28,482 nucleotides of DNA from a virus. Shown here one piece after another: positions 2,120 through 24,366 of the stretch. Each line of letters begins with the position of its first letter. Positions within the stretch are counted from its first letter, which is position 1. Below the pieces are notes generated by a model, which searched no databases, was not told the origin of the DNA, and worked only from the letters and a program-made list of their open reading frames with translations. A program made the position numbers and the translations under genes. The stretch covers positions 1 through 28,482 of the IMG/VR virus record IMGVR_UViG_3300043787_000031; one strand, given 5' to 3'.

Positions 2120-2485
2120 TTAATGCGCTCCCGTCGCCACAGGCGGCCCGACGATCTTGTCGCTATTCGTTGCGTCCGCAAGGGCCTGAGTCGTCACAAT
2201 CGATTTCACTTCGGAGTTGTTCGAAGCGAGGCTGTCCAATTTTTGCTGCAACGGGACCTGTTGCACGTTCGCCAATCGCCCGGCATTGGTCATGTTCGAT
2301 CCGGCAACATAGGTCATCACACCGTTGCCTAGAACCGAAACGATCAGGCACCATTTCACAAGGGGTGGGATGATGTCTGCCGGAAGCGCACCAGCAAAGA
2401 ATCCAGTCCCGGCCGCGGCTATAAGACCCGCGACAAAAACCACGAGGCCAAACCAAAAAGAAACTTTCGGGTCGATGTTAGGCAC
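2120..2485 (-). CDS. Putative holin (two-helix membrane protein)
   Basis: A 121-aa product with a short polar N-terminus (MPNIDPKVSF), membrane helices at about residues 10-33 and 41-63, and a soluble tail ending VKSIVTTQALADATNSDKIVG. This tail is typical of a common holin-like family in rhizobial phages. The start is GTG at 2485, chosen because AGGAG lies 6 nt upstream inside the end of the endolysin gene. The two genes overlap by 8 nt. The endolysin neighbour supports a role in inner-membrane permeabilisation. Confidence 0.75.
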   Translation of the reverse strand: MPNIDPKVSFWFGLVVFVAGLIAAAGTGFFAGALPADIIPPLVKWCLIVSVLGNGVMTYVAGSNMTNAGRLANVQQVPLQQKLDSLASNNSEVKSIVTTQALADATNSDKIVGPPVATGAH

Positions 2486-3059
2486 TTGTTGCTCCTGCCA
2501 TTTTTAGTGCTTCCGCGCCAATTTCCTGCGAGCGCCTAATCCAGTCGCGGCCGAAATATTGGAAGCCCCGGAGCGCGCGATAGTACGCCTCTCGATTGTT
2601 CGTAAAGGCGTTGATCGTGGCGGGGACATTGGTGATGCCCTTGACCGCAGCATCCGTCGCCGGTCCCCACACGCGGTCACTCGTAATTCCGAGCGCGCGT
2701 TGCAGGATCAGCGTGGCCGCGCCGGGGCCGGCGTTCACGGCCTCATCAAAAAACTGCATGTCGAGGCCCGCCGGGAGCTTGGGGCATTCCGGCAACCAAT
2801 AGGAATTGTAGTAGATGTCGGCACCCTCATCGCGGCTGATCTTGCTCACGTCTTGGAGCGGGAGGCCGTTGCTCTTTCGGTAAATGTCGTACTCGCGCTG
2901 AATGATGCCGCACATTGTCTCCCCGCCGGGGTCGTGCGCGTCGTTGGAAAAGTTTCGCCGGTTGCTCCAATCGTTCGGCAGCGGGCATTCCTGAATCAGC
3001 GTGAAGGGCCAGCAAGCGGCAAAACGAGGATCGGCCAGGGCGGTTGCTGCGTCAGTCAT
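2478..3059 (-). CDS. Endolysin, GH108-type N-acetylmuramidase
   Basis: A 193-aa peptidoglycan hydrolase. NDAHDPGGETMCGIIQREYD (about 39-58) matches the core DPGG-x-T-x-x-GI signature of glycoside hydrolase family 108. The C-terminal half (MQFFDEAVNAGPGAATLILQ, then ITSDRVWGPATDAAV) resembles the peptidoglycan-binding region that usually follows. In typical members the catalytic Glu sits in an EGGY-type motif close before DPGG. Here the best candidate is Glu24 in LIQECPLPND, with a longer linker to DPGG. No signal peptide is visible, so a holin should be needed. The start overlaps the upstream 27-codon gene (ATGA). Confidence 0.88.
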   Translation of the reverse strand: MTDAATALADPRFAACWPFTLIQECPLPNDWSNRRNFSNDAHDPGGETMCGIIQREYDIYRKSNGLPLQDVSKISRDEGADIYYNSYWLPECPKLPAGLDMQFFDEAVNAGPGAATLILQRALGITSDRVWGPATDAAVKGITNVPATINAFTNNREAYYRALRGFQYFGRDWIRRSQEIGAEALKMAGATSA

Positions 3060-3181: not shown

Positions 3182-5311
3182 TCAGAGTATTCCGTAGATG
3201 ATGATCGAGCCGGACGTGATGTTGCCGGAGTCCATCTGGACCTGAAAACCATCGACAACGCCGGCCGTGCTCCACGCGCCAGAGAATGACCCTACCACCT
3301 GCCACCCAGATCCGCCGCCGCCGAAATAGCCGAACTGGCCATTGACGTTCATGATCGCGCTGGCGGACGGATTGGTCAAAATGATCTGCCCGCTATATCC
3401 GGGAGCGCTGTTGCTGATCGATTGGTTCGTCCCGGCGGTTACGTGCGTCAGTGGAATGTAGGCGGCGGCATTGCTATTTGACGAACCGACCGCACTGTTT
3501 GCGGCGAGAATATTTATTGAGTTGTATCCTGACGACTGGAACGAGCCGCCGGAATGGACCTGAAACTCCATAATTCTTTCTGTCGTGGCCGGCACAAGGT
3601 TCTGAAAGACCAACAGATAAGATTTGTAGGTGCTGGTTATATGCGTGGTGTCGCTCAAGGATGCCGAGCTGCTCGCCGTGAGCGTCGCCAAATTGACCAT
3701 CGCTCCGGCGACGTTGGTGCCGCACGTCGGATCAGCACTCGCCCCGCCGCCGACGATCACTTGATTGGTCGCGCACGGCCCTACAGCGGCTTGTGCGCTT
3801 GTGCCTTCGCTGACGGGGATTGAATGGGCGGCTGCGGTGGCATTGCCGGTGCCGCCGTTGGCGACGGGGATGGTGCCGCCGCATTGCGGGTCGGTGGATG
3901 CACCTTGGCCAGTGATCGGCACGTTGCTGTTGCACGGCCCTACAGATGCTTGCGCGCCTGTGCCTTCACCGACGGGAACCGAGTGCGCCGTAGCCGTGGC
4001 ATTACCAGTCCCACCTTCGGCCACCATGAGCGGATTAACTAACGCCAGAGCATTGCAGTTGAACGTCGTCGTATTACCGCCGATGTTGCAGACGTTCGCT
4101 CCGTTACGATTCTCAAGGGTTACGTCGTTGGTGCCGTTTCCAGTCAGAATTAGGCCCAAAGTAGAATTGGCGCCGATAAATCCTTGTCCACTCGTTGGGG
4201 CCGGCGGGGTGCCGCCGAAAAGTTGGTTTAGCAACGTCATTGGTATGCCGTTGACGTTGCCGGGCAGGATCGTGTTCGGGTCACTGGCACTATTAATGTA
4301 GCCGGTGTAATCCGAATATAAATATTTTGTCGCGGTCACGCCTGAAAAGCCCGTGAACGTCATTCCTGTCAGATCGATATATCCAGTGCTCGCCACACGC
4401 GCAGAGTCCCCATAGGTTAGGCTTGAGGCCCCGTTAATCGTCACCGCGCCGTTACCGGCAATCTCCCCGCCATTATTTACCGCCAAGAGAACTTCATTGC
4501 TGGCAGTTGCGAGTATCTGAAGGGTGCCTTGAATCGTGACTATACCACCAGCATTTTCCCCCTGCATTGCGAGAGCGCAAACTCCAAAATTGGTGCCGGT
4601 CTCGACGTAAAAGTTCGCACTATTAGCGACGACGCATTGATGATTGCCGCCAACACTTTCTACTTCAAGATTGGAAGTACCCCAGCGAGACGCGATATTG
4701 CGAGCGATGATCGTGCCTTGGGTGGTGCAATTAATAATGACATTGGTGTTCGCGGAGGGATTCCCTAGGATCGTAACAATCTGATTGAGGGAAAAGCTCG
4801 CAAAATAATCCGGCAGAACAAGACATTCATTGTACGTGCCATCGGCAACCTGCAAGGCGACGGTATACGCGCTGAAATCGTACTGGTTTGCCATCGCCGC
4901 AATGGCATAAACCAGCGATTGGCAAGGCGTCGTGATGGTGAGTCCGCACGTACTGACATTCACGCCGGGGCTGCATGTCTGTGTGCCACACGTCGCGGAT
5001 GTCGCGTTGTTGTTCACATAAAACGTAGTGTTGGCTGTCAATCTAATTCGCGGCGGGTATCCCGCATCCGCCAATTGATTGCCGGTCGCATTGCCCCAAA
5101 TTACTGTGTCACCAACAACAGATGTGTTTGGACCAAAAACAACCGGACCCGATGCTCCATTGCAGGAAAAACCCGCGTCTTTCAGAATCGTGTTGGAATT
5201 GAACAGCGCGCAATCCCCCGGCGTAATTGGCCCAATAACCGTCACGGGTTGCGCCCATACGGGCCATACCGCGAGCACCAGCAACAGCAATGCGAGGGAG
5301 AGGCGTTTCAT
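3182..5311 (-). CDS. Fibre/spike-like protein with Sec signal peptide
   Basis: 709 aa. MKRLSLALLLLVLAVWPVWA is a strong signal peptide (cleavage about residue 20). Residues about 100-370 look like a parallel beta-helix, with short strand repeats and many N/G/T. Two 53-residue tandem repeats carrying the GGTGNAT motif, common in phage fibres, lie at about 430-535. The C-terminal domain ends SGNITSGSIIIYGIL, a fold seen at fibre tips. The mature protein has 16 Cys, unusual for a cytoplasmically assembled fibre. The ATG at 5311 forms ATGA with the previous stop. The 153 in-frame upstream codons overlap the neighbouring gene and are rejected. Receptor binding or glycan cleavage is likely; why it would be exported is unknown. 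Confidence 0.8.
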   Translation of the reverse strand: MKRLSLALLLLVLAVWPVWAQPVTVIGPITPGDCALFNSNTILKDAGFSCNGASGPVVFGPNTSVVGDTVIWGNATGNQLADAGYPPRIRLTANTTFYVNNNATSATCGTQTCSPGVNVSTCGLTITTPCQSLVYAIAAMANQYDFSAYTVALQVADGTYNECLVLPDYFASFSLNQIVTILGNPSANTNVIINCTTQGTIIARNIASRWGTSNLEVESVGGNHQCVVANSANFYVETGTNFGVCALAMQGENAGGIVTIQGTLQILATASNEVLLAVNNGGEIAGNGAVTINGASSLTYGDSARVASTGYIDLTGMTFTGFSGVTATKYLYSDYTGYINSASDPNTILPGNVNGIPMTLLNQLFGGTPPAPTSGQGFIGANSTLGLILTGNGTNDVTLENRNGANVCNIGGNTTTFNCNALALVNPLMVAEGGTGNATATAHSVPVGEGTGAQASVGPCNSNVPITGQGASTDPQCGGTIPVANGGTGNATAAAHSIPVSEGTSAQAAVGPCATNQVIVGGGASADPTCGTNVAGAMVNLATLTASSSASLSDTTHITSTYKSYLLVFQNLVPATTERIMEFQVHSGGSFQSSGYNSINILAANSAVGSSNSNAAAYIPLTHVTAGTNQSISNSAPGYSGQIILTNPSASAIMNVNGQFGYFGGGGSGWQVVGSFSGAWSTAGVVDGFQVQMDSGNITSGSIIIYGIL
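3707..4024 (-). repeat. Two tandem 159-nt coding repeats in the fibre gene
   Basis: Copies begin at 4024 (VAEGGTGNATATAHSVPVGE) and 3865 (VANGGTGNATAAAHSIPVSE), exactly 53 codons apart, and each ends near a DPxCG motif. The copies differ at many codons, so the duplication is not recent. GGTG-type modules are familiar as fibre-shaft units that can expand or contract. Confidence 0.8.
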
Positions 5312-5625
5312 TGATAGAATTCCAGAATCACGATGACATTCGCGCCCGCCTGAGAGGCTATCGCGGCCATCCCATTTGTCCAGACTGGCGTGTTCGGCGG
5401 CCCGAACATCTGCCCTTGCTGCGGCTGAATATTTATTGATCCCGCGCCGCTCGCAACCGCCGTAGTGCCCAATGGCGATACCGACAACGTGACCGTCGCC
5501 GACGGATTGAACACGTACAGCCCCGCCCTCTGCGGATTCGGCTGCGCCACAACCACACTCGCATTGCTCACCGTTGGCGTGGTGAGGGCGTTGGGGCTGG
5601 GTTGGGTGGTGCTGCCGGAGCCCAT
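5308..5625 (-). CDS. Small beta-domain protein, non-exported paralogue
   Basis: A 105-aa product with no signal peptide. It reads as a compact beta domain: PNPQRAGLYVFNPSATVTLS, then TTAVASGAGSINIQP, a Trp-containing segment (VWTNGMAAIAS) and a final VIVILEF strand. It aligns with the exported product at 17581-17949 (AAVASGGGTINIAG; GIASGASSVLTIWEY) and more loosely with 7978-8376, so the phage carries a small family of this fold. The ATG at 5625 shares one base with the previous stop (TAATG), and its own stop overlaps the fibre start as ATGA. It is probably virion-associated, given its place beside the fibre gene. Confidence 0.75.
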   Translation of the reverse strand: MGSGSTTQPSPNALTTPTVSNASVVVAQPNPQRAGLYVFNPSATVTLSVSPLGTTAVASGAGSINIQPQQGQMFGPPNTPVWTNGMAAIASQAGANVIVILEFYQ

Positions 5626-5837
5626 TATTTTTTCTTATCGTCTGGTTTAATGGCCTTTGCGTCATCACAGGCGGCGATTTGCTTTTGCTGCGCCTCGATA
5701 GTCTGCGCCCACTGATTGATGACGTTATCGATCTGCAATGCGGTTTGAGCCGGCGTTGGCTGTTGTGCACGCGCGGGCAGCATTAGCGCAAACACCAACA
5801 TATTCACCAAAATCCAGATCTTAATAATGGTTAACAT
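5625..5837 (-). CDS. Small exported coiled-coil protein
   Basis: A 70-aa product. MLTIIKIWILVNMLVFALML followed by PARA|QQ is a signal peptide with predicted cleavage after about residue 24. The mature part is a short helix (ALQIDNVINQWAQTIEAQQK) and a Lys-rich tail ending DDKKK. One Cys is present and no lipobox is seen. ATG 5837 is 7 nt after the preceding stop; the 39 upstream codons in the same frame are Arg-rich shadow sequence of the neighbour. Function unknown; a periplasmic chaperone-like or spanin-like role cannot be told apart by eye. Confidence 0.65.
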   Translation of the reverse strand: MLTIIKIWILVNMLVFALMLPARAQQPTPAQTALQIDNVINQWAQTIEAQQKQIAACDDAKAIKPDDKKK

Positions 5838-5844
5838 TTTGAGC

Positions 5845-6159
5845 CTATTGCGCTGGCGTGATCGTGATCGGCGCCACAGCCTTTGCGGCCGTCGCCCCCT
5901 GCCAATTCTGCACCTGAGCCGCCAACTGCGCGAACACGGAGTCTGACCAAGCATTCCAAGCGGCTTGCCCGGTAGGGTTTCCTGGAAAATATGCCGTGAC
6001 CCATGCGCTGTACGTTGCCGCGTCGGCGTCGCTGATTGTTGACGTAGCCGTTTCCGTTACCGTCCCGGCCGTGTTCTTGTAGGTGATGGTGATAGAGCCG
6101 GCGAGCGCTGGAAGCGGCGCGGCGAGCAAGGCAATCGCGAGAATGATTGAACGGGTCAT
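5845..6159 (-). CDS. Exported small protein in the fibre cluster
   Basis: A 104-aa product with signal peptide MTRSIILAIALLAAPLPALA (cleavage after residue 20). The mature part begins with a beta hairpin (GSITITYKNTAGTVTETATS) and continues as a Trp-containing helical segment (AWNAWSDSVFAQLAAQVQNW). It has no Cys. The start at 6159 overlaps the previous stop (ATGA), which rules out the 9-codon extension. Not recognised; its position between two fibre-like genes suggests a tail or surface role. Confidence 0.7.
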   Translation of the reverse strand: MTRSIILAIALLAAPLPALAGSITITYKNTAGTVTETATSTISDADAATYSAWVTAYFPGNPTGQAAWNAWSDSVFAQLAAQVQNWQGATAAKAVAPITITPAQ

Positions 6160-6497
6160 TGCACGATCCAGTTTGTTCCATTGCACGTTACACCAATCGA
6201 GACTGCGCCGCCACCAACGGCCGTCGCGATTGCAACAGGGGTCAAAGCATCGGTCACTATGTACATCGCGCCTTTTGTTCCAGAATTACATGTCGGCAAC
6301 TGACTGCCTCCCGCTCCGATTGTTGCTAGAGGCCGTGTTGGCGGTGCGCAAGTCAATGTCGATCCGTTGTATTGAACAACCTGTCCGGCCGTCGTGCATC
6401 CCATATCTGCATTTACTGAGGGCACAAGACCGGCAGCGAACGCAGAGCGCGATAACAGCGCAAAGGCAATTCCAAAAGCAACAGAGGGCGTTTTCAT
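6156..6497 (-). CDS. Exported four-cysteine small protein
   Basis: 113 aa from ATG 6497. Signal peptide MKTPSVAFGIAFALLSRSAFA, then a mature beta-rich domain with Cys in GCTTAG, LTCAPP, PTCNSG and VTCNG, which could form two disulphides. TTAGQVVQYNGSTLTCA and ending GVTCNGTNWIVQ resemble short C-terminal fibre domains. A second ATG at 6506 adds three residues. GGGA lies 8 nt before 6497 and AGG lies 6 nt before 6506, so the start is uncertain by three codons. It follows the 493-aa fibre gene by 2 nt. Confidence 0.7.
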   Translation of the reverse strand: MKTPSVAFGIAFALLSRSAFAAGLVPSVNADMGCTTAGQVVQYNGSTLTCAPPTRPLATIGAGGSQLPTCNSGTKGAMYIVTDALTPVAIATAVGGGAVSIGVTCNGTNWIVQ

Positions 6498-6499
6498 GA

Positions 6500-7981
6500 T
6501 CAGCATCCCGAGCCTACCGTGCTGGCAATCGTAACTGGCGTGGCGCTAGTTCCGGCATACGCGATTAAATTGCATGATGTGCCAGAACCAGCAACCCATT
6601 TGAGAACAGCGTAGCCCGCTCCCGGAGCGGCAGCGGCGTCGGTTTCTTTGATTTGAGCAAGGTCGCCACCTTGACCGGCGGCAGGAGTTGACGAGCCAAG
6701 GGTAGCGGCTTTAGCAAAAGCCGCAAATTGTGTGCCGCCAATGAGCGTCAATGCCGCAAGCGCCGTATTCTGCGTGCCTGACGCCGCCGTGCTTTGTGTG
6801 GTCGCTAGAACGATATTGCCGCCAGCGCCAGAGCCGTTGCTCAGAGAACCTTGAAGTGTCCAAGTCACGCCTGCGGTATTGGCGTTGCCTGCGGCGACGC
6901 TTTGTGTCTGCAAGGTCTGTGCGACGGGGGAAGCGCCATCCAGAAGTCCGAGTTGGAGAATGTTTGAGCCGGCAACGGTTAGATTTGTAGTAGTCCCCGC
7001 AGTCGACTCAATAGACAATTCAGTATTAGCCGGCGATGCCAATTTTGTTCTTGAAGCAAATTGAATTAGCGAAGCGCCTGGAATTGTGAGCGTCGATGCA
7101 GTCGTTATTCCGTAGTCGAGTACGACCGCACCGTTGACTGCCAATCCCAACCCCGTCGTGGACACCGAGTAGAGGCCGGTCGTGGAGTTGCCGACGACAA
7201 GCGAAGGCGCGGCCGCAGTACCCGCACTTGATGTCCTAATAATCCCCGTCGCCGTTATCGCGGCGACCCCAACCGTCCCCGTAAAAGTTGGACTAGCCGT
7301 CATCGCCACGACAGTCCCGGTGCCGCTGATCGTGTACTCCCCGAGCACGCCAGCGTTGTTGTATTCGATGTTGGTGGTTGAGCCGCCTGAGATTGTCGTG
7401 GTGCCGACAGTGATGGCCGCCGCCGAGCCGCCTTGGAGCGCAAACCCGCCAGCGCCCCCCGCTGTATTTCCCAAAGCTGTTGCGACGCCTGTTCCAAGCC
7501 CGGTGATCGAACCAACCGCAGGCGTGATCGTCGCTGAACTAACCGCCGTAAGCTGCCCCGCCGCATTGTATGTGATGATCGGAGCGACGGTTGCCGAACC
7601 TGTCGGGCCGCCCGCAGTAATGACGCCGCCTTGTGCGCAAGTACCCGAAGCCGTACCGAAAGCCGAGCATGGCGCCGCCGCTGCAAAAGCGCCGGTCCCT
7701 AACACGCCGCCTGGCCCACTGGACGTGATTGCCGACCCCGCACCAATCGCCACTGACGACGGCGTGATCGCCCCGAGCGTCAATGTGATTGCCGGCGTCG
7801 TTGTCGGATTGGCAACCGAACCTGAAATGCCGTTTGCCGTGACGACGGAAACCGATGTGACGGTGCCCGAACCGCCACCGCCGCCCGAAGTCGTCGGGTT
7901 GTTAAGCCCGCTCCCCATATCTTGCGCGGACGCGGCAGCGAGCGCACCAAACAAAAACAGCGCTGCAAGCCGGAATTTCAT
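6500..7981 (-). CDS. Fibre-shaft-like protein with Sec signal peptide
   Basis: A 493-aa product. MKFRLAALFLFGALAAASA is the signal peptide, followed by a Gly-rich linker with GTVTSVSVVTANGISGS, typical of trimeric phage fibre collars. The body is Ala/Gly/Thr/Ser-rich beta repeats, for example TASPTFTGTVGVAAITATGI and NSTTGLYSVSTTGLGLAVNG, as in triple-beta-spiral or adhesin-like stalks. Four Cys in total, two of them in the last 40 residues, which form a distinct C-terminal tip. ATG 7981 overlaps the previous stop (ATGA), so the 33-residue upstream extension is not used. Probably a second fibre or adhesin. Confidence 0.75.
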   Translation of the reverse strand: MKFRLAALFLFGALAAASAQDMGSGLNNPTTSGGGGGSGTVTSVSVVTANGISGSVANPTTTPAITLTLGAITPSSVAIGAGSAITSSGPGGVLGTGAFAAAAPCSAFGTASGTCAQGGVITAGGPTGSATVAPIITYNAAGQLTAVSSATITPAVGSITGLGTGVATALGNTAGGAGGFALQGGSAAAITVGTTTISGGSTTNIEYNNAGVLGEYTISGTGTVVAMTASPTFTGTVGVAAITATGIIRTSSAGTAAAPSLVVGNSTTGLYSVSTTGLGLAVNGAVVLDYGITTASTLTIPGASLIQFASRTKLASPANTELSIESTAGTTTNLTVAGSNILQLGLLDGASPVAQTLQTQSVAAGNANTAGVTWTLQGSLSNGSGAGGNIVLATTQSTAASGTQNTALAALTLIGGTQFAAFAKAATLGSSTPAAGQGGDLAQIKETDAAAAPGAGYAVLKWVAGSGTSCNLIAYAGTSATPVTIASTVGSGC

Positions 7982-8376
7982 TGCGTTTGCCACGCCGCGA
8001 ATTGGTGCGCGGTCGTAGCACCGAGAATATAAACCGTCTGTCTCGTCATGTAGCTTCCGGTAAAGACCTGACTGCCGCACGCGGCGAGCTCAAACGCGCC
8101 AAGGCTTGGGCCAGATGCCGTCGTGGGCGCCGCCGTATTCGGCGGGAGGAAATAAACAAAGACGCTTTCCGCAGTCACGATGCCCTGCGTTGTCGCCGAA
8201 CAATAATTCTCAATCCAGAGCGTCTTGCGGTTATCGTTGGCAGCGAACAGAACTTGCCACGTGCCGCCGGTGGTGACTGCGAGCGTTGCTGCGGGACTTA
8301 TCGGACCTACGGCTTGCGCGAGCGCGGCGCCGGCCCACAACACCGCTGCGAAGATAAGGGCTCCAAGGCGCTTCAT
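7978..8376 (-). CDS. Exported small beta-domain protein
   Basis: A 132-aa product with signal peptide MKRLGALIFAAVLWAGAALA (cleavage after residue 20). The mature core LAVTTGGTWQVLFAANDNRK followed by TLWIENYCSATTQ resembles the NPQRAGLYVFNPS and ARHGVTFYNQSSN segments of the paralogues at 5308-5625 and 17581-17949. Two Cys (NYCSA, AACGS) could pair. It opens the exported cluster and is coupled by ATGA to the fibre-shaft gene. The longer frame to 8445 is shadow sequence of the preceding gene. Confidence 0.7.
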   Translation of the reverse strand: MKRLGALIFAAVLWAGAALAQAVGPISPAATLAVTTGGTWQVLFAANDNRKTLWIENYCSATTQGIVTAESVFVYFLPPNTAAPTTASGPSLGAFELAACGSQVFTGSYMTRQTVYILGATTAHQFAAWQTQ

Positions 8377-8585: not shown

Positions 8586-8846
8586 TCAGCCTTTCCGATG
8601 ATAAAGGGTTGCGAGCGGCCCCACGAAAACAACAGAGAAAGCGACCGCGGCATAGAGCCGGTCCCGCGTCGGGTCCCAGATGGTATAGCCCCAGATTGCC
8701 GCTCCGGTGATCACCGCGATCATCAAGAGCATTCGCGTTGCGCAGATTGATGCGATGGAGCGGGCCGTATCGACAAAGCCCCGGTCCACGTCGTCTGCAC
8801 TTGGCCCCGGCTGAGTTTCCTGAAAGAGTTTTGTTGGTTCTGTCAT
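8586..8846 (-). CDS. Two-helix membrane protein
   Basis: An 86-aa product with a hydrophilic N-terminal 30 residues (MTEPTKLFQETQPGPSADDV). Membrane helices lie at about 38-54 (MLLMIAVITGAAIWGYTIW) and 64-80 (LYAAVAFSVVFVGPLATLY), followed by a short basic end. The start overlaps the previous stop as ATGA. It stands between ejection-type proteins and fibre genes; a membrane role during DNA entry or lysis is possible but unproven. Confidence 0.7.
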   Translation of the reverse strand: MTEPTKLFQETQPGPSADDVDRGFVDTARSIASICATRMLLMIAVITGAAIWGYTIWDPTRDRLYAAVAFSVVFVGPLATLYHRKG

Positions 8847-9037
8847 TGTTCAAAGAACCCTTTTTCCCCTTCCGGGGATATGCGATGCCGGATCAACGCA
8901 ACTTTCACACCGGCGTTGATCGCGGCAACGCGGTCACTCGACTCGCTCGATTTATCCTTGAGCACGTCCTTAACCCCCTGCTCTAAAATATCGAGGAACG
9001 CATTCGTTTCGGCTTTGTGATCCTTCGGCGCGGCCAT
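8843..9037 (-). CDS. Small acidic/basic helical phage protein
   Basis: A 64-aa product, MAAPKDHKAETNAFLDILEQ onward, predicted all-helical, ending with a basic patch (VALIRHRISPEGEKGFFEQ). ATG 9037 is 10 nt downstream of the 492-aa gene's stop. The ten-codon extension to 9067 would overlap that gene. Similar short proteins are common next to internal virion protein genes in podoviruses; their function is not known to me. Confidence 0.65.
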   Translation of the reverse strand: MAAPKDHKAETNAFLDILEQGVKDVLKDKSSESSDRVAAINAGVKVALIRHRISPEGEKGFFEQ

Positions 9038-9047
9038 GATTCTATTC

Positions 9048-10526
9048 TCACGGGCCGATTTGGGCAAGCGGGGATTGGGAGCTTTGCGAGAATGCCGACG
9101 TGGCGCCGCCTGCCCCTCCGCGCGCTGCGCTACTCGTAATCAGCCCCGGCGTCGGCGTGACCGCCGCACCCTGTCCGACCGGAGATTCGGCGCGAATGAT
9201 ATCCTCGAGCTCGCGCAATTGTCGCTTCGTCAGATACTCGCCGAGATAGCGCGCGATCAAGCCGCCGCCGGCAACCGCCGTGCCGACGCCTGGCCCGGCC
9301 GCTTCGCCGGCCAACAGGCCAAAGCCGGTCGAGATAACGCCGCTCGGCGCAAACTGACTTGCCCAACGCGAGCTATTGGTCGCCCATGTGCCGAGCACGA
9401 TGCGTTCCATTTGCTCTTTGGCTGCGCTCGAAAAGCCGCGCGACTTGGTATCGCTATCTAAAATCTTTCTGATGTTTTGTCGGACGGCGTTAATTTTAGT
9501 AGGGCCACCGGCAGAGGAAGCGGCGCGATGTTCGGCCTCGTCGCCAATTCGCTCCAACAATTCCAATTCTTTGTAGGATCGCCAACTGGCGCGAGCGCCC
9601 TGCAACATCGCCGAAGTAAATTTCGGATCGCCAGCCGTGACGCTTGCCGGATCAAGCTTTTCGATAAATTCGTCTATCGCATTTCGCACGTGCGCGGCGG
9701 CGGCGTAATCGGTGCCCTCCATAGGTTTGATGTTGCCGAGTTTTTGCCGCACCGACATGAGCTGCGCCACGTCGCCGCGCGTCGTTTCATTTTTCAGTTG
9801 CTCCAAGGCGCGGTACGTGCGCGGTGCACTGGCCGGCACGATCAAATCAGCATCAAGAGAATTCTCAATATCCGAATAGAGCGCATCCACGGATTCTTTA
9901 GTGGTCCACAGCCGAGCACTCGCAACCGCCTTGTAGGCATCCTGCGCCGATTGTTTGATTGCCTCGGTGGACGGCAGCGCGGCGGAAATTCGTGCGGACT
10001 GTCGCTCGGCGCCGACAACGCCAGCCGCGCCGCCACCGGCAGCGGCGCCAGCAATTCGCGCGAAGGGCTCGGCCTTTGTCCCTTCCGTCAATTCGCCGGC
10101 GCCTTCCGAAGCGAGTGCGCTCGCGGCCATACCGCCGACTTTGAGCGCAGCCGAGCCCGGTCCTAAATAGCTCGCCGGATTGGCGGCGAACTCGCCAAGC
10201 GTTTCACCAAATCGACCGGCGCGGCCTTCCGGTTGATGGAGGCCAAGTGCCGGCGCTACTTTGTCACCCGTTGGGATCTCCGGCCCCGCGTCCGGTTTGT
10301 CGGTGAATGCCAGGGCGCGCTGTTCGGATTCTATTTGCTCGCCGCGCGCAAAGTCGGCTGCGGTGCGCGCCATCCCGGTCGGGATGGATTTCACGAAATC
10401 GCCGGTCGCAGACGATTTTTGTGGACCGGCCGCGTATTGCTTCATCGCGCGATCAACAACGTCTTGCTGCGTTCCGTCAGGAAATTCGTGCACCACGCCG
10501 TCTGCACTCCGGGCTTGTATGGGCAT
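9048..10526 (-). CDS. Putative internal virion (ejection) protein
   Basis: A 492-aa product. The N-terminus ADGVVHEFPDGTQQDVVDRA is a short module often found at the start of phage virion and ejection proteins. The body is helical, with Gly/Ala-rich flexible stretches at about 160-172 and 405-425 (GLLAGEAAGPGVGTAVAGGG), features expected of a protein that unfolds to pass the portal and insert into the membrane. No enzymatic motif is seen. It abuts the 562-aa gene without a gap (stop at 10527, ATG at 10526). Role inferred from layout and neighbours. Confidence 0.7.
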   Translation of the reverse strand: MPIQARSADGVVHEFPDGTQQDVVDRAMKQYAAGPQKSSATGDFVKSIPTGMARTAADFARGEQIESEQRALAFTDKPDAGPEIPTGDKVAPALGLHQPEGRAGRFGETLGEFAANPASYLGPGSAALKVGGMAASALASEGAGELTEGTKAEPFARIAGAAAGGGAAGVVGAERQSARISAALPSTEAIKQSAQDAYKAVASARLWTTKESVDALYSDIENSLDADLIVPASAPRTYRALEQLKNETTRGDVAQLMSVRQKLGNIKPMEGTDYAAAAHVRNAIDEFIEKLDPASVTAGDPKFTSAMLQGARASWRSYKELELLERIGDEAEHRAASSAGGPTKINAVRQNIRKILDSDTKSRGFSSAAKEQMERIVLGTWATNSSRWASQFAPSGVISTGFGLLAGEAAGPGVGTAVAGGGLIARYLGEYLTKRQLRELEDIIRAESPVGQGAAVTPTPGLITSSAARGGAGGATSAFSQSSQSPLAQIGP

Positions 10527-13274: not shown

Positions 13275-13625
13275 TCACACGATCCCCAATGCTTGCCGAA
13301 TCGCCGCGTGCTCGGTGGCGTGATACCCCGTAAAATTATAGAAGTCGTCCGCATTCGACAAATCAAATTGCGAGTAATCGACGCCGCCGACGCCGGTGAT
13401 CTGCCGCAACAGCGCGTGCGCCTGGTTATGCGTCTCGACAATCGAGCCGCGCGCCGGGCCGGCGGTGAGCATTTGCAGAAAATCGAAATTCGGGATGAGC
13501 ACGGCCGGCGTCTGCCCTGCCAATGCTTCGACAAATTGTTGGTGCTCGCGGTGATGGTTGTCATCCCATACGCCGAGGCCGGGCACGTCGCCGAACGTCA
13601 CTTGATCGGGTGAGAATTGCGGCAT
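13275..13625 (-). CDS. Hypothetical virion-region protein, His-rich
   Basis: A 116-aa product with a patterned, clearly protein-like sequence: MPQFSPDQVTFGDVPGLGVW, then a His-rich DDNHHREHQQF. Later segments are NQAHALLRQITGVGG and YNFTGYHATEHAAIRQAL. The clustered His and Asp could bind metal, but no named family is recognised. ATG 13625 shares a base with the nozzle gene's stop (TGATG) and has AAGG 6 nt upstream. Confidence 0.65.
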   Translation of the reverse strand: MPQFSPDQVTFGDVPGLGVWDDNHHREHQQFVEALAGQTPAVLIPNFDFLQMLTAGPARGSIVETHNQAHALLRQITGVGGVDYSQFDLSNADDFYNFTGYHATEHAAIRQALGIV

Positions 13626-16126
13626 CACGCGCCTTTCCACAATCCGGTCTCTTGGTACTCGATAAGCATATTCGTTGCCGTGAATCCCTGAAAATTTCCG
13701 GTCAATGTGATCCCAAGATAGACGCCGGCCGCACCGATCGGACTGTTGTTCGCGTCATTCATTCCGCCGGTGACGGCAAATCCGGCCGTAACGTTCAACT
13801 CATAATTTGCGCTACTCCCGGCCTCTGTGTCCACCGTCATTACGGCCTGATTGGAGCCGAAAGACAGGCCGTAGGAAAATCCCGCGCGGATAGCTTTCTT
13901 TCCCTGCACGGCGTTGCCATGGTGCGTGAGCGCGCTCTGTATTTTCCAGTTGACGGCGGCGCCGCGCGCAACTAACTGCGTTACGTCCGGGCCGGAGCTT
14001 CCATAAAGAGAATTCTGCCCGGTCGCCAGCGACGCCGACGTGGCGATGGCTGTGAGAGAATTGCCCTGCGACAACACCCACCATCGCTTGCCGTCGAATG
14101 TCAGCATGATTGAGCGCGTGGTAGAGAGCGGGTCTTTGTAGCGAACTAAAAACACTGCATTGTGGATAGCGTTAATGTCCGCGAGCGCGCCTTGCGGCAC
14201 CTGAGTAAAATCAACCAGCTTCCAAATACCATCCATGTCGCCGGACAATTTCTGCACGCTCGAACCGAATACGCCATAGATGCCGTTCGAGTTGGCGAAC
14301 ATGAACACGCGATTGTAGCTGATACAGGACTTCGGATAGATCGTGCCTTGGTCCGATGACAGAGTGAGGATTGTGAACAGCGTCACGTCGCCAGCCGAGT
14401 TGAGCGAGATATTTCCGATCTGCTTCACCGACTGATCGCCCATGATGAACAAATAATTGTTGAGCGAGCGCAGCGCCGTAATCGCGTGGATCAAATCCGC
14501 ATCTGAAATAATGAGCGACCCGGAAGCGTCGGCCGCCAAAAAATCATCGTAGCCGACATTGCCGTAGCTCGCGCCGGTGCCGGTCCATGTGAGCAATGGG
14601 CCACCGCCAAGCCACACGCGACCTTGAAACACCGCAACCGTCGTGAACGCATAAGCCGCGATGCTCGAATTGATGAAGGGCCAGACGTGCGCCTCTGCGG
14701 CCGCACCCGATCCCGAACCAATAACAACCGCGGGCGTTAGATCGTAGCCGGCACCTTGCGAGGCCGTGAACGCTTGCAGCGTCGGATTTGTCGAGAACGT
14801 GGCGCCGACAACGGCCACAGTCGGCGCCGTGGTGTAATTGGTTCCGCCGCTTGTCAGGTTCAAGGAAATCACACCGACAGAGGTTGTGCCGCTATCGTTG
14901 GTGTAGTTGCCGATGGTTGCCGTGCCCGTGGCGCCGGACCCGCCGCCGCCCGTGAAGCTCAAAGCAAAGGTGCCGGGCGTCGATGAAATCCCTTGGAAGG
15001 CGATGAAAAGATTTACAACCGCCGAGGGGTTGAGCGCAATCGACGTAACCGCGCCGCCCGATTCAGTCGTCGTTGCCGCCGCGCCAGATCCATTGCCGTC
15101 GCTGGGCACGATGGCGGCGGCGGGGGGTGCGGTGTACGCACTACCGCCGGCGTCGAGCACGATTGTTGCAACGCTTTCGGTTCCTAAAAACACAGCAAAT
15201 ACTGGTTGATTGGGTCCCGCAGTGGTCAGCGTACAGGTTGGTGGACTGGTGTAGCCGCTACCGGGCGAGGTCAGCGTGACCGATGCAACTGTGCGGCCCA
15301 AACCAGAATTTATAACTGTTGCGTACCCGCGCGCGCCCGTGCCGCCGCCGCCGCTAAACGCCAGAGTATGGATACCCGCGACCGGGGACGAAAACCCGCC
15401 AGGATTGACAATGCCAATTCCCGTGGCCGGAAATCCCGTCATCGTCACATGAGCAGCCGCACCCGAGCCGGGACTCGTGCCGAACGTCACCGTCAATGTA
15501 TCGGTCGCCTGATAGCCGTGTCCGGGATTGTCGAGAACAACAGAGGTTACCGAACCATTCGTGACAACCGCATGGGCGGTAGCGCCCGACCCGGAGCCGC
15601 CGCTGATCGTGACAGACGGCGCCGAGCCATAGCCGCTCCCGCCGTCCGTCACGGCGATATTTGGCGACACGCCGCCTTGGCTCACATAAAGCGTGCCGTC
15701 GAACGTCGTGTAGCCCGCTTTTGAATCAGCAATGAGCAGCCGCGATGCCTGCCACGTCGTCACGTCGGGCTGTGAACTGAAAGTCCCGTCTGGTGCAAAT
15801 TGCCCCACCGCTCCCGTCGCAATATTGACCAGATACCCACTGCCCGCGGTCGTGAACGCCACAAAATAATCCACGCCCATAAGCGCGGCGTAGAACATCG
15901 TGGAAATGTTTTCGCTGATGGTCGCGAGCGCGGCGGCGGCCGGTGCCGGAACGACGGTCAAATTGTTGCCGGCAATCGGTTGCAGGTTTTCGAGCCACGC
16001 CAATTCTTTTTCCGACAACGATTGCCGGATAGACTGCGTGTTCATCTTCTCGAAATTCTCGAAAACGATGAACTTTGTCTGCGAGCGTTGTTCGCCGCCG
16101 GGTTGCCCGAGCTGCTGACCAGCCAT
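13625..16126 (-). CDS. Tail nozzle/tube protein with large beta-repeat insertion
   Basis: An 833-aa product. The ends look like a podoviral nozzle (T7 gp12/P22 gp10-like): an N-terminal core (about 25-150) and a C-terminal core (about 480-833) with propeller-like segments such as VFQGRVWLGGG, ISDADLIHAITALRSLNN and FDGKRWWVLS. Between them, about residues 155-480 hold six degenerate repeats of the form GGSGYxSAPxVTI followed by GSGSGATA and a VTSVVL strand. The same repeat occurs in the adaptor (16129-17124) and the protein at 18975-19892. ATG 16126 has GAGG 5 nt upstream and follows the adaptor stop by 2 nt. The nozzle call rests on layout, position and remembered family features. Confidence 0.72.
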   Translation of the reverse strand: MAGQQLGQPGGEQRSQTKFIVFENFEKMNTQSIRQSLSEKELAWLENLQPIAGNNLTVVPAPAAAALATISENISTMFYAALMGVDYFVAFTTAGSGYLVNIATGAVGQFAPDGTFSSQPDVTTWQASRLLIADSKAGYTTFDGTLYVSQGGVSPNIAVTDGGSGYGSAPSVTISGGSGSGATAHAVVTNGSVTSVVLDNPGHGYQATDTLTVTFGTSPGSGAAAHVTMTGFPATGIGIVNPGGFSSPVAGIHTLAFSGGGGTGARGYATVINSGLGRTVASVTLTSPGSGYTSPPTCTLTTAGPNQPVFAVFLGTESVATIVLDAGGSAYTAPPAAAIVPSDGNGSGAAATTTESGGAVTSIALNPSAVVNLFIAFQGISSTPGTFALSFTGGGGSGATGTATIGNYTNDSGTTSVGVISLNLTSGGTNYTTAPTVAVVGATFSTNPTLQAFTASQGAGYDLTPAVVIGSGSGAAAEAHVWPFINSSIAAYAFTTVAVFQGRVWLGGGPLLTWTGTGASYGNVGYDDFLAADASGSLIISDADLIHAITALRSLNNYLFIMGDQSVKQIGNISLNSAGDVTLFTILTLSSDQGTIYPKSCISYNRVFMFANSNGIYGVFGSSVQKLSGDMDGIWKLVDFTQVPQGALADINAIHNAVFLVRYKDPLSTTRSIMLTFDGKRWWVLSQGNSLTAIATSASLATGQNSLYGSSGPDVTQLVARGAAVNWKIQSALTHHGNAVQGKKAIRAGFSYGLSFGSNQAVMTVDTEAGSSANYELNVTAGFAVTGGMNDANNSPIGAAGVYLGITLTGNFQGFTATNMLIEYQETGLWKGA

Positions 16127-16128
16127 GG

Positions 16129-17124
16129 CTACCTCGATACGCGGCGCTGAAAAGTTTTGTTGTAAGGATTGGGAATTCGTACGCCGCCTTTGCCGATGAT
16201 GATCTTCGGCACTCGCGCGCTGTAGAGCTTGAGCATGAATTCTGCTTGATTGAAGTTCTGCAATTTGTTCAAACAATAATGCGCGGCGTAATACTGCACC
16301 GCGTCATTGGCGGGCGGCAAAATCTGTGTCTCGTAGTCTGTCGTTTGCGTGAGCGGCTGCGGCGTGCAAACCGTATCCCATTCTGTTTGATAGGGCTGAT
16401 CGGGCGGCGGTTGGATCAGAACGAACCCCTGCTCTTGTTGAATCGTCGTCACCAAGCCGCGTTGCGTGAAAAACAGTTGTGAGCGCATATACGCTTGGAA
16501 CAACGTGAAGCCACGCCACGCCAGCATGTAGCGTTGATTGCCCCAAATATAAGAGATCGAGATCACGTTAAACACATTGTTGAACATCACGGCAGTTGCG
16601 CTCGCGCCGCTGCCGCCGCCCGTATCGGCAATCGTCACACTCGGCAGATTGGCGAATGTGGACGTGCCGCGCACCGCCGGCAGATAGCCGTTGCCCCACT
16701 GGGTCATGTTGATGGCGGAAATGACGCCGCTCGATATGACCGGCACGCCGGTTGCCTGGATGCTTCCCGATGGCCCGGCGCCGAACGTCACCGTTGTTGC
16801 CGATGAATAGTTGGCGCCGCCGGCCGTAACCGCGGCGCCGACGACAACACCGCCGTTTGCCACGGCCGCGCCAGTGACGCCGCTCGATTCATTCTGAATG
16901 TAGTAGAGCTCTTGGTTGGTGATGACGCCGACAGGATTATAGTTGCCGGCATTCGCCACCGCGTTCGGCGGCGTCAAATAAGTGACGCGCACGCATTGAA
17001 AATCGAGCGCGACGACCGTGCGCGCCTGATTGATCGCGTTTATCAGTTCCGCTTGCGAGAAATCAGCGTTGCTCTGATCGTGCAACAGGAATTGCAACTG
17101 CGTGATGTAATCCGACAGTTGCAT
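16129..17124 (-). CDS. Head-tail adaptor (T7 gp11-like) with inserted beta repeat
   Basis: A 331-aa product. The N-terminal helices MQLSDYITQLQFLLHDQSNA and ELINAINQARTVVALD, and the C-terminal part (ISISYIWGNQRYMLAWRGF; DAVQYYAAHYCLNKLQNFNQ), are characteristic of podoviral tail tubular protein A/adaptors. Residues about 88-182 (VTAGGANYSSATTVTF and later GGGSGASATAV) carry the GGxxY beta repeat found in the nozzle, interrupting the adaptor fold. The nozzle gene follows 2 nt downstream, the same order as gp11-gp12 in T7. Confidence 0.78.
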   Translation of the reverse strand: MQLSDYITQLQFLLHDQSNADFSQAELINAINQARTVVALDFQCVRVTYLTPPNAVANAGNYNPVGVITNQELYYIQNESSGVTGAAVANGGVVVGAAVTAGGANYSSATTVTFGAGPSGSIQATGVPVISSGVISAINMTQWGNGYLPAVRGTSTFANLPSVTIADTGGGSGASATAVMFNNVFNVISISYIWGNQRYMLAWRGFTLFQAYMRSQLFFTQRGLVTTIQQEQGFVLIQPPPDQPYQTEWDTVCTPQPLTQTTDYETQILPPANDAVQYYAAHYCLNKLQNFNQAEFMLKLYSARVPKIIIGKGGVRIPNPYNKTFQRRVSR

Positions 17125-17580: not shown

Positions 17581-17949
17581 TCAATATTCCCAAATCGTCA
17601 GAACCGAGCTCGCGCCCGACGCGATGCCCTGCCAAGCGTTGCCGCACGGATACGTGGTCGAGCAAGTGACGACGAGCATTCCGCCGCTACCGGCGATGTT
17701 GATGGTGCCGCCGCCGCTCGCGACCGCAGCCGCGGTGCCCGGTGTGACGGAAATCACGTTGGATGATTGATTGTAGAACGTGACGCCATGCCGCGCGCCG
17801 TTGGCGGCGAGCAACGACACTGAGGTTGTGCCCACCGTGACGGTGGAGGCGACGGGCGATGCCGAGCCGAGCTGTGCGAGCGCTGGTGCGGCGAACCACG
17901 CGACGGCGCCGAGGAACGCAGCAACGAGGATTGATATCTTGATTTTCAT
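17581..17949 (-). CDS. Exported small beta-domain protein
   Basis: A 122-aa product with Sec signal peptide MKIKISILVAAFLGAVAWFA plus APALA (cleavage after about 25). The mature domain (SVSLLAANGARHGVTFYNQS; AAVASGGGTINIAGSGGML; GIASGASSVLTIWEY) aligns with the non-exported protein at 5308-5625. The two Cys (TCSTTYPC) are close enough to pair. AAGGAGG lies 5 nt before ATG 17949. It stands among head-tail connector genes, an unexpected place for an exported protein. Confidence 0.75.
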   Translation of the reverse strand: MKIKISILVAAFLGAVAWFAAPALAQLGSASPVASTVTVGTTSVSLLAANGARHGVTFYNQSSNVISVTPGTAAAVASGGGTINIAGSGGMLVVTCSTTYPCGNAWQGIASGASSVLTIWEY

Positions 17950-17959
17950 CGTCGCCTCC

Positions 17960-18439
17960 TTAGCCGCCGCTCTGCGCAACGCAGACGTACTGCAATTTGT
18001 TGTTGGACGTCGATGTTTGCGTGGTGGTGATCGAAGCCGCCGCCGTCACGTAGCTTTGCGAGGCCAGCGGGGTTGCAATCCACGACACCACGCAGAAGGG
18101 CGTGGCCGTGTAAGCCACGTTGAACGTGATAACGCAGCCTGTCGCGGTCGTGCCCATCGTGACGATGCCGGCGGTGTCGGTGCCGGTGATTGATGGCGTG
18201 GTGCCGCAAGACGTAAGCGCAGGCGCCGTGGTCTGCCCGGACGCAATATGCGTCGGCGCGCCGGTGCCCGAACCGAATTGCTGCAGCGCGCCGGTAAAGG
18301 TGTTGTTGCCGGTGTAAGTGTTGTTTGATCCGAGGCCGGCGCCCGGAATAGTCAGCGTCATGTTGTCGGCGAACGCCGCCGCGACGCATAGAGCGAGCGC
18401 GAGCGCCAGCACCGCTACGATCTGTCGAAGGTGTTTCAT
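17960..18439 (-). CDS. Exported fibre-tip-like protein
   Basis: A 159-aa product with signal peptide MKHLRQIVAVLALALALCVA plus AAFA (cleavage about residue 24). The mature protein has a short GNNTFTGALQQFGSG linker. It then has a domain with SCGTTPSITGTDTAGIVTMG, a type I associate with C-terminal domains of phage fibre proteins. Four mature Cys (SCG, GCV, FCV, VCV) could form two disulphides. The start overlaps the previous stop as ATGA. It may be a free-standing fibre tip or decoration domain. Confidence 0.72.
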   Translation of the reverse strand: MKHLRQIVAVLALALALCVAAAFADNMTLTIPGAGLGSNNTYTGNNTFTGALQQFGSGTGAPTHIASGQTTAPALTSCGTTPSITGTDTAGIVTMGTTATGCVITFNVAYTATPFCVVSWIATPLASQSYVTAAASITTTQTSTSNNKLQYVCVAQSGG

Positions 18440-18974: not shown

Positions 18975-19892
18975 CTATTGGACGCGCGGCTGCAGAATGG
19001 CAACGCCGCGGACATTGGTGTTGTTCGTGACGGTAACAGTCGCCGCGATGCTGGCGCCGCCGCCGGTAAAGGTCACGGCCGGGCTGGCGGTCGTGTAGCC
19101 GCCGCCGGCTTCGACAATGACAAGACCGGTCAAGGTGCCGGAACCGGTCAACGCCACGGATGTGAGCTGCGCGCCGGTCGGCGACGTGTTCTGATTTCCC
19201 GCCGCCGCATTGCCCGGATAGACCAAGCCAAGCGGCGGATAAGCGCCGGGGCCGGCTCCGAGCGACGGGCCGCCCTGATAGATGCCGGCCTGCGGAAGAA
19301 TCCAAAAGTTCGGCGACGCCGCGTAGCCGCCGCCGACATTGACCATCGTCACTGACGCGATCCCGGAGCCGCCCGCCGCAGTCAGCACCGCATAAGCGGT
19401 TGCCTGAATGCCGCCCGGCGGCGGCGGATCGATGACGATCAGCGGCGGAACGATGAAACCGGAGCCAGCCTGAGTGATCGTGGGCGCGGCAACCGAGCCG
19501 CCAATGATCGGCTGTAGCGTAATGGTCGGATAACCGGTCGTGTCCGACGCAGCCACGGCCGCCGAAACACCCGTTGCAACCGAGCCGATGCCGTTGGTCG
19601 CGGTCGCGGCGCCGGCATTGCTGATCGTCGTGAGCGATGCCGCGCCATAGTTATTGCGGATGCGGAAATTGAAACCGTCCGCACTCAGAAATCCGCCGGT
19701 ACTGACGGGATACAGGATTTGCCAGCTTTGCGACTGGCCGTCGAAAAACTCGACCTGAGTGTGAGTGTCGTTCAACACCAGATATTCGCCGGCCGGCGGA
19801 TAGAACTTTGCCCCGGATGCCAGTTCAATCCTAGTGCCGCCTTCCTGGACCTGTGCCAGCGGAAGGGGAAATGCGCCGCCTATGCGAGCCAT
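18975..19892 (-). CDS. Virion protein with beta repeats, possible decoration protein
   Basis: A 305-aa product. A unique N-terminal domain of about 80 residues (GTRIELASGAKFYPPAGEYL; VEFFDGQSQSWQILYPVSTG) is followed by beta repeats at about 136-200 and 250-298: AGSGFIVPPLIVI, GGGYAASPNFWIL and AGGGYTTASPAVTFTGGG. These are relatives of the GGSGY repeats in the nozzle and adaptor. GAGGA lies 8 nt before ATG 19892. It directly follows the major capsid gene, the usual place for a capsid decoration or head-fibre protein; this is inference. Confidence 0.68.
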   Translation of the reverse strand: MARIGGAFPLPLAQVQEGGTRIELASGAKFYPPAGEYLVLNDTHTQVEFFDGQSQSWQILYPVSTGGFLSADGFNFRIRNNYGAASLTTISNAGAATATNGIGSVATGVSAAVAASDTTGYPTITLQPIIGGSVAAPTITQAGSGFIVPPLIVIDPPPPGGIQATAYAVLTAAGGSGIASVTMVNVGGGYAASPNFWILPQAGIYQGGPSLGAGPGAYPPLGLVYPGNAAAGNQNTSPTGAQLTSVALTGSGTLTGLVIVEAGGGYTTASPAVTFTGGGASIAATVTVTNNTNVRGVAILQPRVQ

Positions 19893-19902
19893 GATCCGGT
19901 CC

Positions 19903-20913
19903 TCAGATGTTCAAGTACGCGAGCCCGTCGAACTTGCCGTGCGCTTTGCACTTCACATCGACAAGCTCGGAAAGCGTCAGGATGGCGCCGACGTAGCCGA
20001 GCTGATTGTTCGGCAGCGTCGATTCAAATCCGGTGAAAGAGAATGCCGCTCGTTCGTGAAGATAGAGCGACAGATAGTTGGTGTTGACCAGATAGAGCGT
20101 GCCTTCCGGGCAATACGGATCGGCATAGAACGGCACGCCGGCGACGTCGAGCGCGCGGAACAAAGATTCGATCTTCTTGTCGGCGCCGAAACCGCCGCCG
20201 GGCGTGATGTTGTAGCGCTCTTGCGACGTGAAGTCCTGCGCGAGCAAGGTCCAGGTGCCAAAACCCATGATGCCTATCGAAGGCATTTCGCCGGTGGTCT
20301 TTGACACCTGCGAAATGTACTGCAGCATCAAGTTGCGCGTCGGCGTGACGTTGCCGTTGCCGTGAACGTAAGTGGATTTCCAGAACGTGTTGTTGGCGCG
20401 AATGATGCCGCCATACGATGCCGAGAACGTGCCGTCATCGATTGCGGCCGGAAGGCCGATCATCTGTTGGACGTTGGCGACGTTGTTGTAGAGCGAATTC
20501 GACAGCGTATCGATGGTGACATTGGTGGAGTCGTTCATGCGCGCTTCGATCAGCGGCACGACGGAGTAATCGAGCTGCACCAAACCTTCAAAGCCGAGGA
20601 AGGGGATGGTGGAGATAAACGCCTTCAAATTGAATTCGGCGTTCTGAATTCCGGGCTGCACACCGGGTTGCGCGAATGAGCCGGAGTAATCGACCCATTG
20701 GCCGGTCACCATCGGGTTGCCCTGCAACGGCGCGGTGATCGGCGACAAGCCGCCGGTGGCGACCTGTGCTGAGGATAACAGCGCCGCGATCAGCGGTGCC
20801 GATTTCCAGATTTGGACGTAAAAACGGGGCATGAAGCCCCGGCGCACGGTGGCGCCGAGCTCGTTGGCAATTGCGCCGGCTGCCGGGATGATGCCGCTAC
20901 CTAGCTGTGGCAC
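19903..20913 (-). CDS. Major capsid protein
   Basis: A 336-aa product, the size of a typical HK97-fold capsid protein. It has a hydrophobic N-terminal helix region and an acidic/aromatic central part. Segments such as SKTTGEMPSIGIMGFGTWTL, DVAGVPFYADPYCPEGTLYL and NYLSLYLHERAAFSF match the late strands of phage capsid subunits. The order scaffold-like, capsid, accessory supports the call. The start is GTG at 20913, chosen for the near-perfect TAGGAGG 6 nt upstream, which fits a highly expressed protein. No protease gene is recognised nearby. Confidence 0.82.
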   Translation of the reverse strand: MPQLGSGIIPAAGAIANELGATVRRGFMPRFYVQIWKSAPLIAALLSSAQVATGGLSPITAPLQGNPMVTGQWVDYSGSFAQPGVQPGIQNAEFNLKAFISTIPFLGFEGLVQLDYSVVPLIEARMNDSTNVTIDTLSNSLYNNVANVQQMIGLPAAIDDGTFSASYGGIIRANNTFWKSTYVHGNGNVTPTRNLMLQYISQVSKTTGEMPSIGIMGFGTWTLLAQDFTSQERYNITPGGGFGADKKIESLFRALDVAGVPFYADPYCPEGTLYLVNTNYLSLYLHERAAFSFTGFESTLPNNQLGYVGAILTLSELVDVKCKAHGKFDGLAYLNI

Positions 20914-24187: not shown

Positions 24188-24366
24188 GGTAAATCCTCTT
24201 CGACAGAGAATTGAAACGGCCCGATGACCGCACCGAAAGACCGCCCGCAAATATGCGGGTAGGGAGCAGGGACTAAATGGCACCGCCAATTGAACGGCGC
24301 GAGCATGAAATGAACACCCCACCGCCTAGTGCCGAGCAAAACAAAAAATTGAAAGCAGACTCTCAT
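24184..24366 (-). CDS. Possible 60-aa coupled ORF between zinc-ribbon and portal genes
   Basis: Starts at ATG 24366 in an ATGA overlap with the preceding stop and ends at TGA 24184 in a GTGA overlap with the portal start, filling the gap exactly. The sequence is aromatic and hydrophobic (MRVCFQFFVLLGTRRWGVHF; FGAVIGPFQFSVEEDLP) with no clear family. It contains a CCCGCA-AATA-TGCGGG hairpin (24244-24259). The double overlap argues for coding. The composition is less convincing. Confidence 0.45.
   Translation of the reverse strand: MRVCFQFFVLLGTRRWGVHFMLAPFNWRCHLVPAPYPHICGRSFGAVIGPFQFSVEEDLP

Follow-up and report, generated by a model that had tools for sequence, protein, structure and literature searches.

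Predicted Sec export of a tail-fibre-like protein and its neighbours encoded in the late operon of a soil phage lineage

Introduction

Phage lambda encodes a known exported protein, Lom, within its tail-gene region. Podoviral fibres of the T7 gp17 type carry no signal peptide and fold in the cytoplasm, and we know of no tailed phage that assembles with exported fibres added at lysis. Phage proteins that are placed in the periplasm have been described as receptor blockers, as in the case of T5 Llp and Rtp45 (PMC9586334, PMC12685063). Our search of the open-licence literature found no paper describing phage tail fibres with export signals, in agreement with a first-pass annotation of the DNA analysed here, which had stated that no such system was described. 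Herein, we analyse a 28,482-base IMG/VR virus record (the window, i.e., the whole stretch of DNA under study), the minus strand of which is a phage late operon, and we focus on the gene cluster at positions 8376-3182, six of whose seven products, a fibre-like protein included, are predicted to be exported.

Materials and Methods

Sec signal peptides were scored with a home-made scorer that evaluates the n-, h- and c-regions and the A-x-A cleavage site. Relatives of the phage (68) were found by searching with its major capsid protein, and the late regions of approximately 30 of them were analysed; gene calling in them relied on a simple codon model, and the mature sequences were clustered into families. 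Genomes and contigs of relatives are denoted by G or L and a number.

Results

The genes whose window coordinates are given in this work belong to the minus-strand late operon, which runs from the terminase (25155-27029) through the portal (22421-24214), the capsid and tail/ejection-type genes down to 8381, and then through the 8376-3182 cluster to a glycosyl hydrolase 108 endolysin (2478-3059; PF05838, E 1e-16; phrog_315) located immediately 3' of the fibre gene, a holin-like gene and an outer-membrane protein. The major capsid protein (19903-20913; phrog_9953, E 2e-25) is not exported. The portal and terminase matches to the SU10 portal and T7 head-tail adaptor families are weak, and a short-tailed morphology would fit them. 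Since longer related contigs mostly measure 41-45 kb, the window is probably a fragment of a larger phage genome. The lineage is one of soil phages, and viral scans showed that the families of the fibre and of the first cluster gene are confined almost wholly to it. The tail genes at 13625-17124 and 18975-19892 have in common GGSGYxxxPxVxxxGGxGxGAxAxA repeats and match virion structural, tail-fibre and baseplate-wedge PHROGs; one BLAST cluster takes in three genes of a single operon. The early half of some relatives encodes proteins consisting mostly of GYGSGYGDGYGS repeats (L134:477-1079, L135:1472-2008). The only GTDB contig among the relatives, the 42.6-kb L072 (JANXPR010000126.1), was binned in an Acidobacteriaceae MAG; it is probably a phage contig, and the host link is uncertain.

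Seven genes, designated A to G, make up the 8376-3182 cluster. Gene A (7978-8376) encodes a 132-aa protein with two cysteines, a jelly-roll-like AANxNRxxLxIxN motif and a signal, MKRLGALIFAAVLWAGAALA, followed by Q at the predicted mature start, while the product of B (6500-7981) is a fibre-like protein of 493 aa, rich in Gly, Ser and Thr, with four cysteines (MKFRLAALFLFGALAAASA, then Q). The next three products are smaller: C (6156-6497, with an alternative start at 6506; 113 aa) has four cysteines in its mature part and a C-terminal CNGTNW motif, D (5845-6159; 104 aa; MTRSIILAIALLAAPLPALA, then G) gave no relative by BLAST, and E (5625-5837; 70 aa; MLTIIKIWILVNMLVFALMLPARA, then Q) bears a weaker Sec signal. 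L092 encodes homologues of B, also with a signal peptide, and of E. F (5308-5625) is a 105-aa jelly-roll protein devoid of both signal peptide and cysteines, and a near-invariant partner 5' of the fibre gene. The fibre-like protein itself, G (3182-5311; 709 aa), combines a Sec signal (MKRLSLALLLLVLAVWPVWA, then Q) with a conserved mature N-terminus (QPVTVIGPITPGDC...KDAGFSCNG), GGTG-type repeats and a swapped C-terminal domain (phrog_14820). From A to G the scores were 9.0, 9.2, 6.1, 7.3, 3.4 (the weakest of the cluster), none and 11.5. The first-pass annotation, which had reported signal peptides for five of six genes and for the fibre, was borne out for six genes, the fibre among them, and needs correction in the gene count, which is seven; it rightly singled out F as the sole member without a signal. 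The tight coupling that it described (ATGA, TAATG or 2-7 nt) is likewise seen in the junctions, with ATGA at A/B, C/D and F/G, TAATG at E/F, a 7-nt gap at D/E and either 3 nt or an overlap at B/C.

Beyond the genes listed in that annotation, the same virion operon carries further signals. The gene at 17960-18439 encodes a 159-aa protein with four cysteines in the mature part (score 11.5), whose homologue in L082 also has a signal peptide; its neighbour at 17581-17949 (score 9.8; MKIKISILVAAFLGAVAWFAAPALA, then Q) encodes an exported jelly-roll protein with two cysteines, a paralogue of F; and the outer-membrane beta-barrel-type protein (OmpX/Ail/Lom-like), located 3' of the lysis genes (1124-1861), scored 9.6. 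A possible additional small exported protein with two cysteines is encoded 5' of the terminase (27500-27799; weak score of 2.0). Pfam gave no match for any exported protein of the window.

Each positive protein has an n-h-c signal peptide whose A-x-A type site has Ala as its last residue, and all non-secretory window genes scored -9 or lower. In the calibration sets, the genes scoring above 3 among 45 from E. coli K-12 all encode known exported proteins (ompA, appA, csgI, ycbF, gfcA-D), and the one positive among 53 annotated T7 genes is a small membrane protein. In MW202825 and MW202753, the two nearest phage records, no gene scored above 3, and the scorer was nearly silent on a Bradyrhizobium prophage. 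Among open reading frames of at least 100 aa, only one of 512 in 14 control phages scored above 5, compared with 41 of 531 in this lineage (Fisher p = 1e-11), and the sole control positive is lambda Lom.

Several other explanations of the N-termini were rejected. The cleavage sites of the exported window proteins are of the signal peptidase I type with no Cys at +1, and the lack of a lipobox rules out lipoproteins; spurious starts are ruled out by family conservation. Holins or spanins would differ in size and would have a transmembrane segment besides the leader. An internal restart yielding a cytoplasmic form of the fibre was also discarded, as GTG codons occur close to the start of the mature part in only some members and no conserved site was seen.

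Families of mature sequences are nearly always composed either of signal-bearing or of signal-less members only. The fibre family has a signal in 15 of 15 members (16 with L127; about 14 phages), the family of A in 4/4, and those of the 17960 protein, B and the outer-membrane protein in 2/2 each, compared with none of the 243 members of seven core virion families. In family A (six pairs), identity is 39% in the signal peptides vs 81% in the mature part; in family G, leaders share 33% identity vs 55% for the first 38 mature residues (48/55 pairs). Thus, in both families the conserved sequence begins at the predicted cleavage site. This pattern is, as read from the alignments, that of an evolving cleaved leader and not of a virion-anchoring N-terminus, and the predicted export signal is conserved as a property rather than as a sequence. 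The 17960 and outer-membrane protein families, with a single pair each, gave no difference between leader and mature identity. Ochrobactrum phage ZX86 encodes a homologue of A with neither a signal peptide nor cysteines.

The cysteine content follows the same division. Among cysteine-containing proteins, the count is even in 88% for the 86 mature exported proteins vs 38% for the 253 non-exported ones, and cysteine density is four times higher in the former. Because related sequences are not independent, we repeated the comparison with one protein per family, which gave even-to-odd ratios of 22:5 for exported and 30:34 for non-exported proteins (p = 0.003). The two N-terminal cysteines of the fibre are either both present (11 members) or both absent (2 members) and never occur singly (13/13). 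Likewise, a domain of the type SAASTNST...KATAPTxGTDTP...GIGxx is exported in L083, L085, L086 and L090, with cysteines at APTC and GIGxC (in the L085 copy the first one is at another position), whereas its homologues in the Caulobacter phages KSC, S2B and Cr30, an Octadecabacter virus, Xanthomonas phage PBR31 and two cyanophages have neither the signal nor that cysteine pair, most of these unexported homologues having V or A at the two sites. The jelly-roll family of the window itself shows the same split, with the 17581 protein exported and containing two cysteines and F unexported and containing none. Taken together, the signals and the cysteine pattern make it very probable that the exported proteins are disulfide-bonded, i.e., that Sec export, cleavage by signal peptidase I and disulfide formation all take place.

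The C-terminus of G matched only phrog_14820 (E 2e-11), a family of unknown function and a weak lead that was not found in the relatives, and searching 50,697 phages by tblastn, with the whole fibre as well as with its C-terminus, returned nothing. Across the family, C-termini are swapped between phages and the N-terminus is kept. The member from L087 contains Peptidase_S74 (8e-12) and matches the tail fibre phrog_1980 (6e-20), a signal-bearing protein of L108 matches the tail fibre phrog_4492 (5e-15), other exported distal proteins match tail-fibre or virion PHROGs, and L105 combines Laminin_G with Gly-rich domains. F lies directly 5' of the fibre gene in about 13 phages. In L097 (4630-6993) and L109 (4634-5770; both in reverse-complement coordinates), F and the exported fibre are relocated as a two-gene cassette, which is found between tail genes, behind a tail gene, and not before the lysis genes; L112 encodes a fusion of an F-type domain with a fibre-like protein. 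Elsewhere in three near-complete relatives, we saw no further fibre-like gene. We consider that the exported fibre is probably the receptor-binding fibre of the phage. In G008 and L088/L089 it need not be the sole receptor binder, since these encode additional unexported fibre-like genes. The AF2 model of the 17581 jelly roll (pLDDT 92) resembles many small uncharacterised phage proteins, and its PDB matches are weak, including a disulfide-linked Bacillus endospore appendage subunit (E ~0.01).

The outer-membrane protein (1124-1861) was modelled with low confidence (AF2 pLDDT 63), so that only its class is used here; the model has eight long strands, and its best PDB matches, which are weak, are OmpX/Ail. 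PF13505 was detected only in its L082 counterpart. An exported barrel-type gene after the lysis genes, analogous to lambda Lom, recurs with strongly divergent sequences in L082, L085, L090, L092 and L127. The mature N-terminus of the window protein has what we take to be a rhizobial appearance, and a plasmid search for this protein was empty; for the relatives, an alphaproteobacterial host is probable. About ten relatives carry in the late operon a multi-TM gene of the Wzy_C superfamily, which comprises O-antigen ligases and protein O-oligosaccharyltransferases (L083:12036-13061, L086:880-2010, L090:9048-10082, L092 ~8591-9742 and L095 ~13837-14892; also L012, L020/L085, L024, L025, L030 and L071). 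It adjoins an exported jelly-roll gene with the cysteine pair in four relatives and lies a few hundred bases off in four more; no such gene was found in the window. NCBIfam returned TfpM for it at E 0.012, far below the cut-off, which does not discriminate between the two kinds of enzyme. Possibly, the system has a third element, in which glycans are transferred onto its exported proteins.

Discussion

The first-pass annotation had offered two readings of the signal peptides, in which the fibres either complete their maturation in the periplasm and are added to virions at lysis or act with their neighbours on the host envelope before lysis. Export is well supported by the conservation of the signals, the cysteine pairing, the boundary at which conservation begins and the controls; of the two readings, we favour the former, and the latter has gained some support as well. 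In the favoured reading, fibre G (3182-5311) and several small jelly-roll and fibre-like proteins would be made late in infection as Sec precursors, translocated by the host and cut by signal peptidase I after A-x-A, and their disulfides would form in the periplasm. Capsid, tail tube, ejection proteins and the putative adaptor F (5308) would stay in the cytoplasm until holin and endolysin breach the envelope, whereupon F-bearing virions would meet mature, oxidised fibres, which would use their conserved N-terminus (QPVTVIGPITPGDC...) to dock on F. The sequences themselves show the signals, their conservation, the cysteine signature of disulfides and, in some members, fibre-type domains; the inferred steps of this scheme are that the real host exports and cleaves the precursors, that the fibre binds F and that the particle is assembled at lysis.

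The maturation of the fibre and the small jelly-roll proteins in the periplasm followed by joining at lysis is favoured because of the fibre domain content, the conserved association with a cytoplasmic protein and the failure to see any other fibre gene, and we regard it as about evenly balanced between right and wrong. Dilution of exported fibres at lysis would count against it, as do the exported outer-membrane protein of the window and the O-antigen-ligase-like gene of relatives, both of which point to envelope modification. The same two features speak for the chief alternative, in which the exported proteins would remain part of the infected cell's envelope and, in the manner of T5 Llp, Cor and Rtp45 or of lambda Lom, would mask or block receptors from the inner side or alter the surface. 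Superinfecting phages and progeny would thereby be kept off the cell and its debris, and the fibre would be a receptor-binding domain that is secreted and has been turned into a blocker. The predicted barrel is Lom/OmpX-like and shares the operon, and in many relatives the ligase-like gene stands beside or near an exported jelly-roll gene. A precedent is provided by T5 Llp, a periplasmic phage protein with a disulfide, whose gene lies beside the receptor-binding gene (PMC9586334). However, the exported set resembles fibre and virion domains and reaches a large size (1257 aa in one relative), its fibre is paired with the cytoplasmic jelly roll F, no other fibre gene turned up in the relatives checked and the window proteins have no lipobox; on balance, we consider retention in the envelope somewhat unlikely.

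We find it improbable that the exported fibres, rather than being parts of the virion, are released for the surface of the host or its neighbours as adhesins or decoys, whether by lysogenic conversion or by late secretion; secreted bacterial proteins with tail-fibre domains exist and the Laminin_G and Gly-rich domains of L105 would suit such a role, but the location in a structural operon next to the lysis genes, the ATGA coupling and the pairing with F argue against it. Quite improbable, too, is that the N-terminal hydrophobic segments remain uncleaved and serve the virion, e.g., by membrane insertion at DNA ejection, their likeness to signal peptides being secondary. Some jelly-roll members do have long hydrophobic leaders (L107, L110); however, the A-x-A sites with Q at +1, the variable leaders preceding a conserved mature start and the paired cysteines are at odds with this notion. 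Finally, GC-rich, alanine-rich coding sequence can mimic signal peptides, but given one positive among 512 control frames against 41 of 531 in the lineage, and the conservation across families, chance or misread gene starts have a practically negligible probability.

More broadly, we tentatively propose an assembly in two compartments, in which a periplasmic, disulfide-bonded fibre and capsid/tail-type jelly rolls would be added to otherwise complete particles at lysis, in some relatives perhaps after glycosylation by the Wzy_C protein; this sequence-based proposal strikes us as somewhat more likely to fail than to hold. If the exported fibres end up on virions, assembly of tailed phages extends beyond the cytoplasm, and the fibres would gain periplasmic folding, with disulfides and possibly glycans, that is barred to cytoplasmic assembly. 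If they stay in the envelope, they would represent a new and elaborate class of superinfection or receptor-masking systems built from fibre genes. Annotation pipelines that exclude virion proteins by the presence of a signal peptide would miss any exported fibres that join the particle.

Compared with known systems, the window protein at 1124-1861 is, in predicted fold class and in position, like lambda Lom, which is Sec-exported and encoded within the tail-gene region; Lom, however, is one moron gene, whereas in this operon export is predicted for most members of a coupled fibre cluster, proteins with fibre domains included. The superinfection-exclusion lipoproteins T5 Llp, Cor and Rtp45 are also small exported phage proteins, with a disulfide in Llp and a gene beside the receptor-binding gene (PMC9586334, PMC12685063), but they are small (Rtp45, ~6 kDa), whereas the proteins described here have no lipobox, reach 709 aa in the window, and carry fibre repeats, joined in one relative by an S74 chaperone. 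With fibres of the T7 gp17 and S74 types, the G family shares the position as the last structural gene before lysis, the conserved N-terminus, the swapped C-terminus and, in L087, the S74 chaperone; it differs in that all 15 members and L127 carry a signal peptide, which T7 gp17 and the other control fibres lack. Lastly, the small phage jelly-roll proteins with the RxGLxIxN motif and the SAATTNATxxK...KATAPTVGT domain contain the same domains by sequence or fold; elsewhere these occur with neither signal peptide nor cysteine pair, whereas here exported paralogues are encoded alongside the unexported F.
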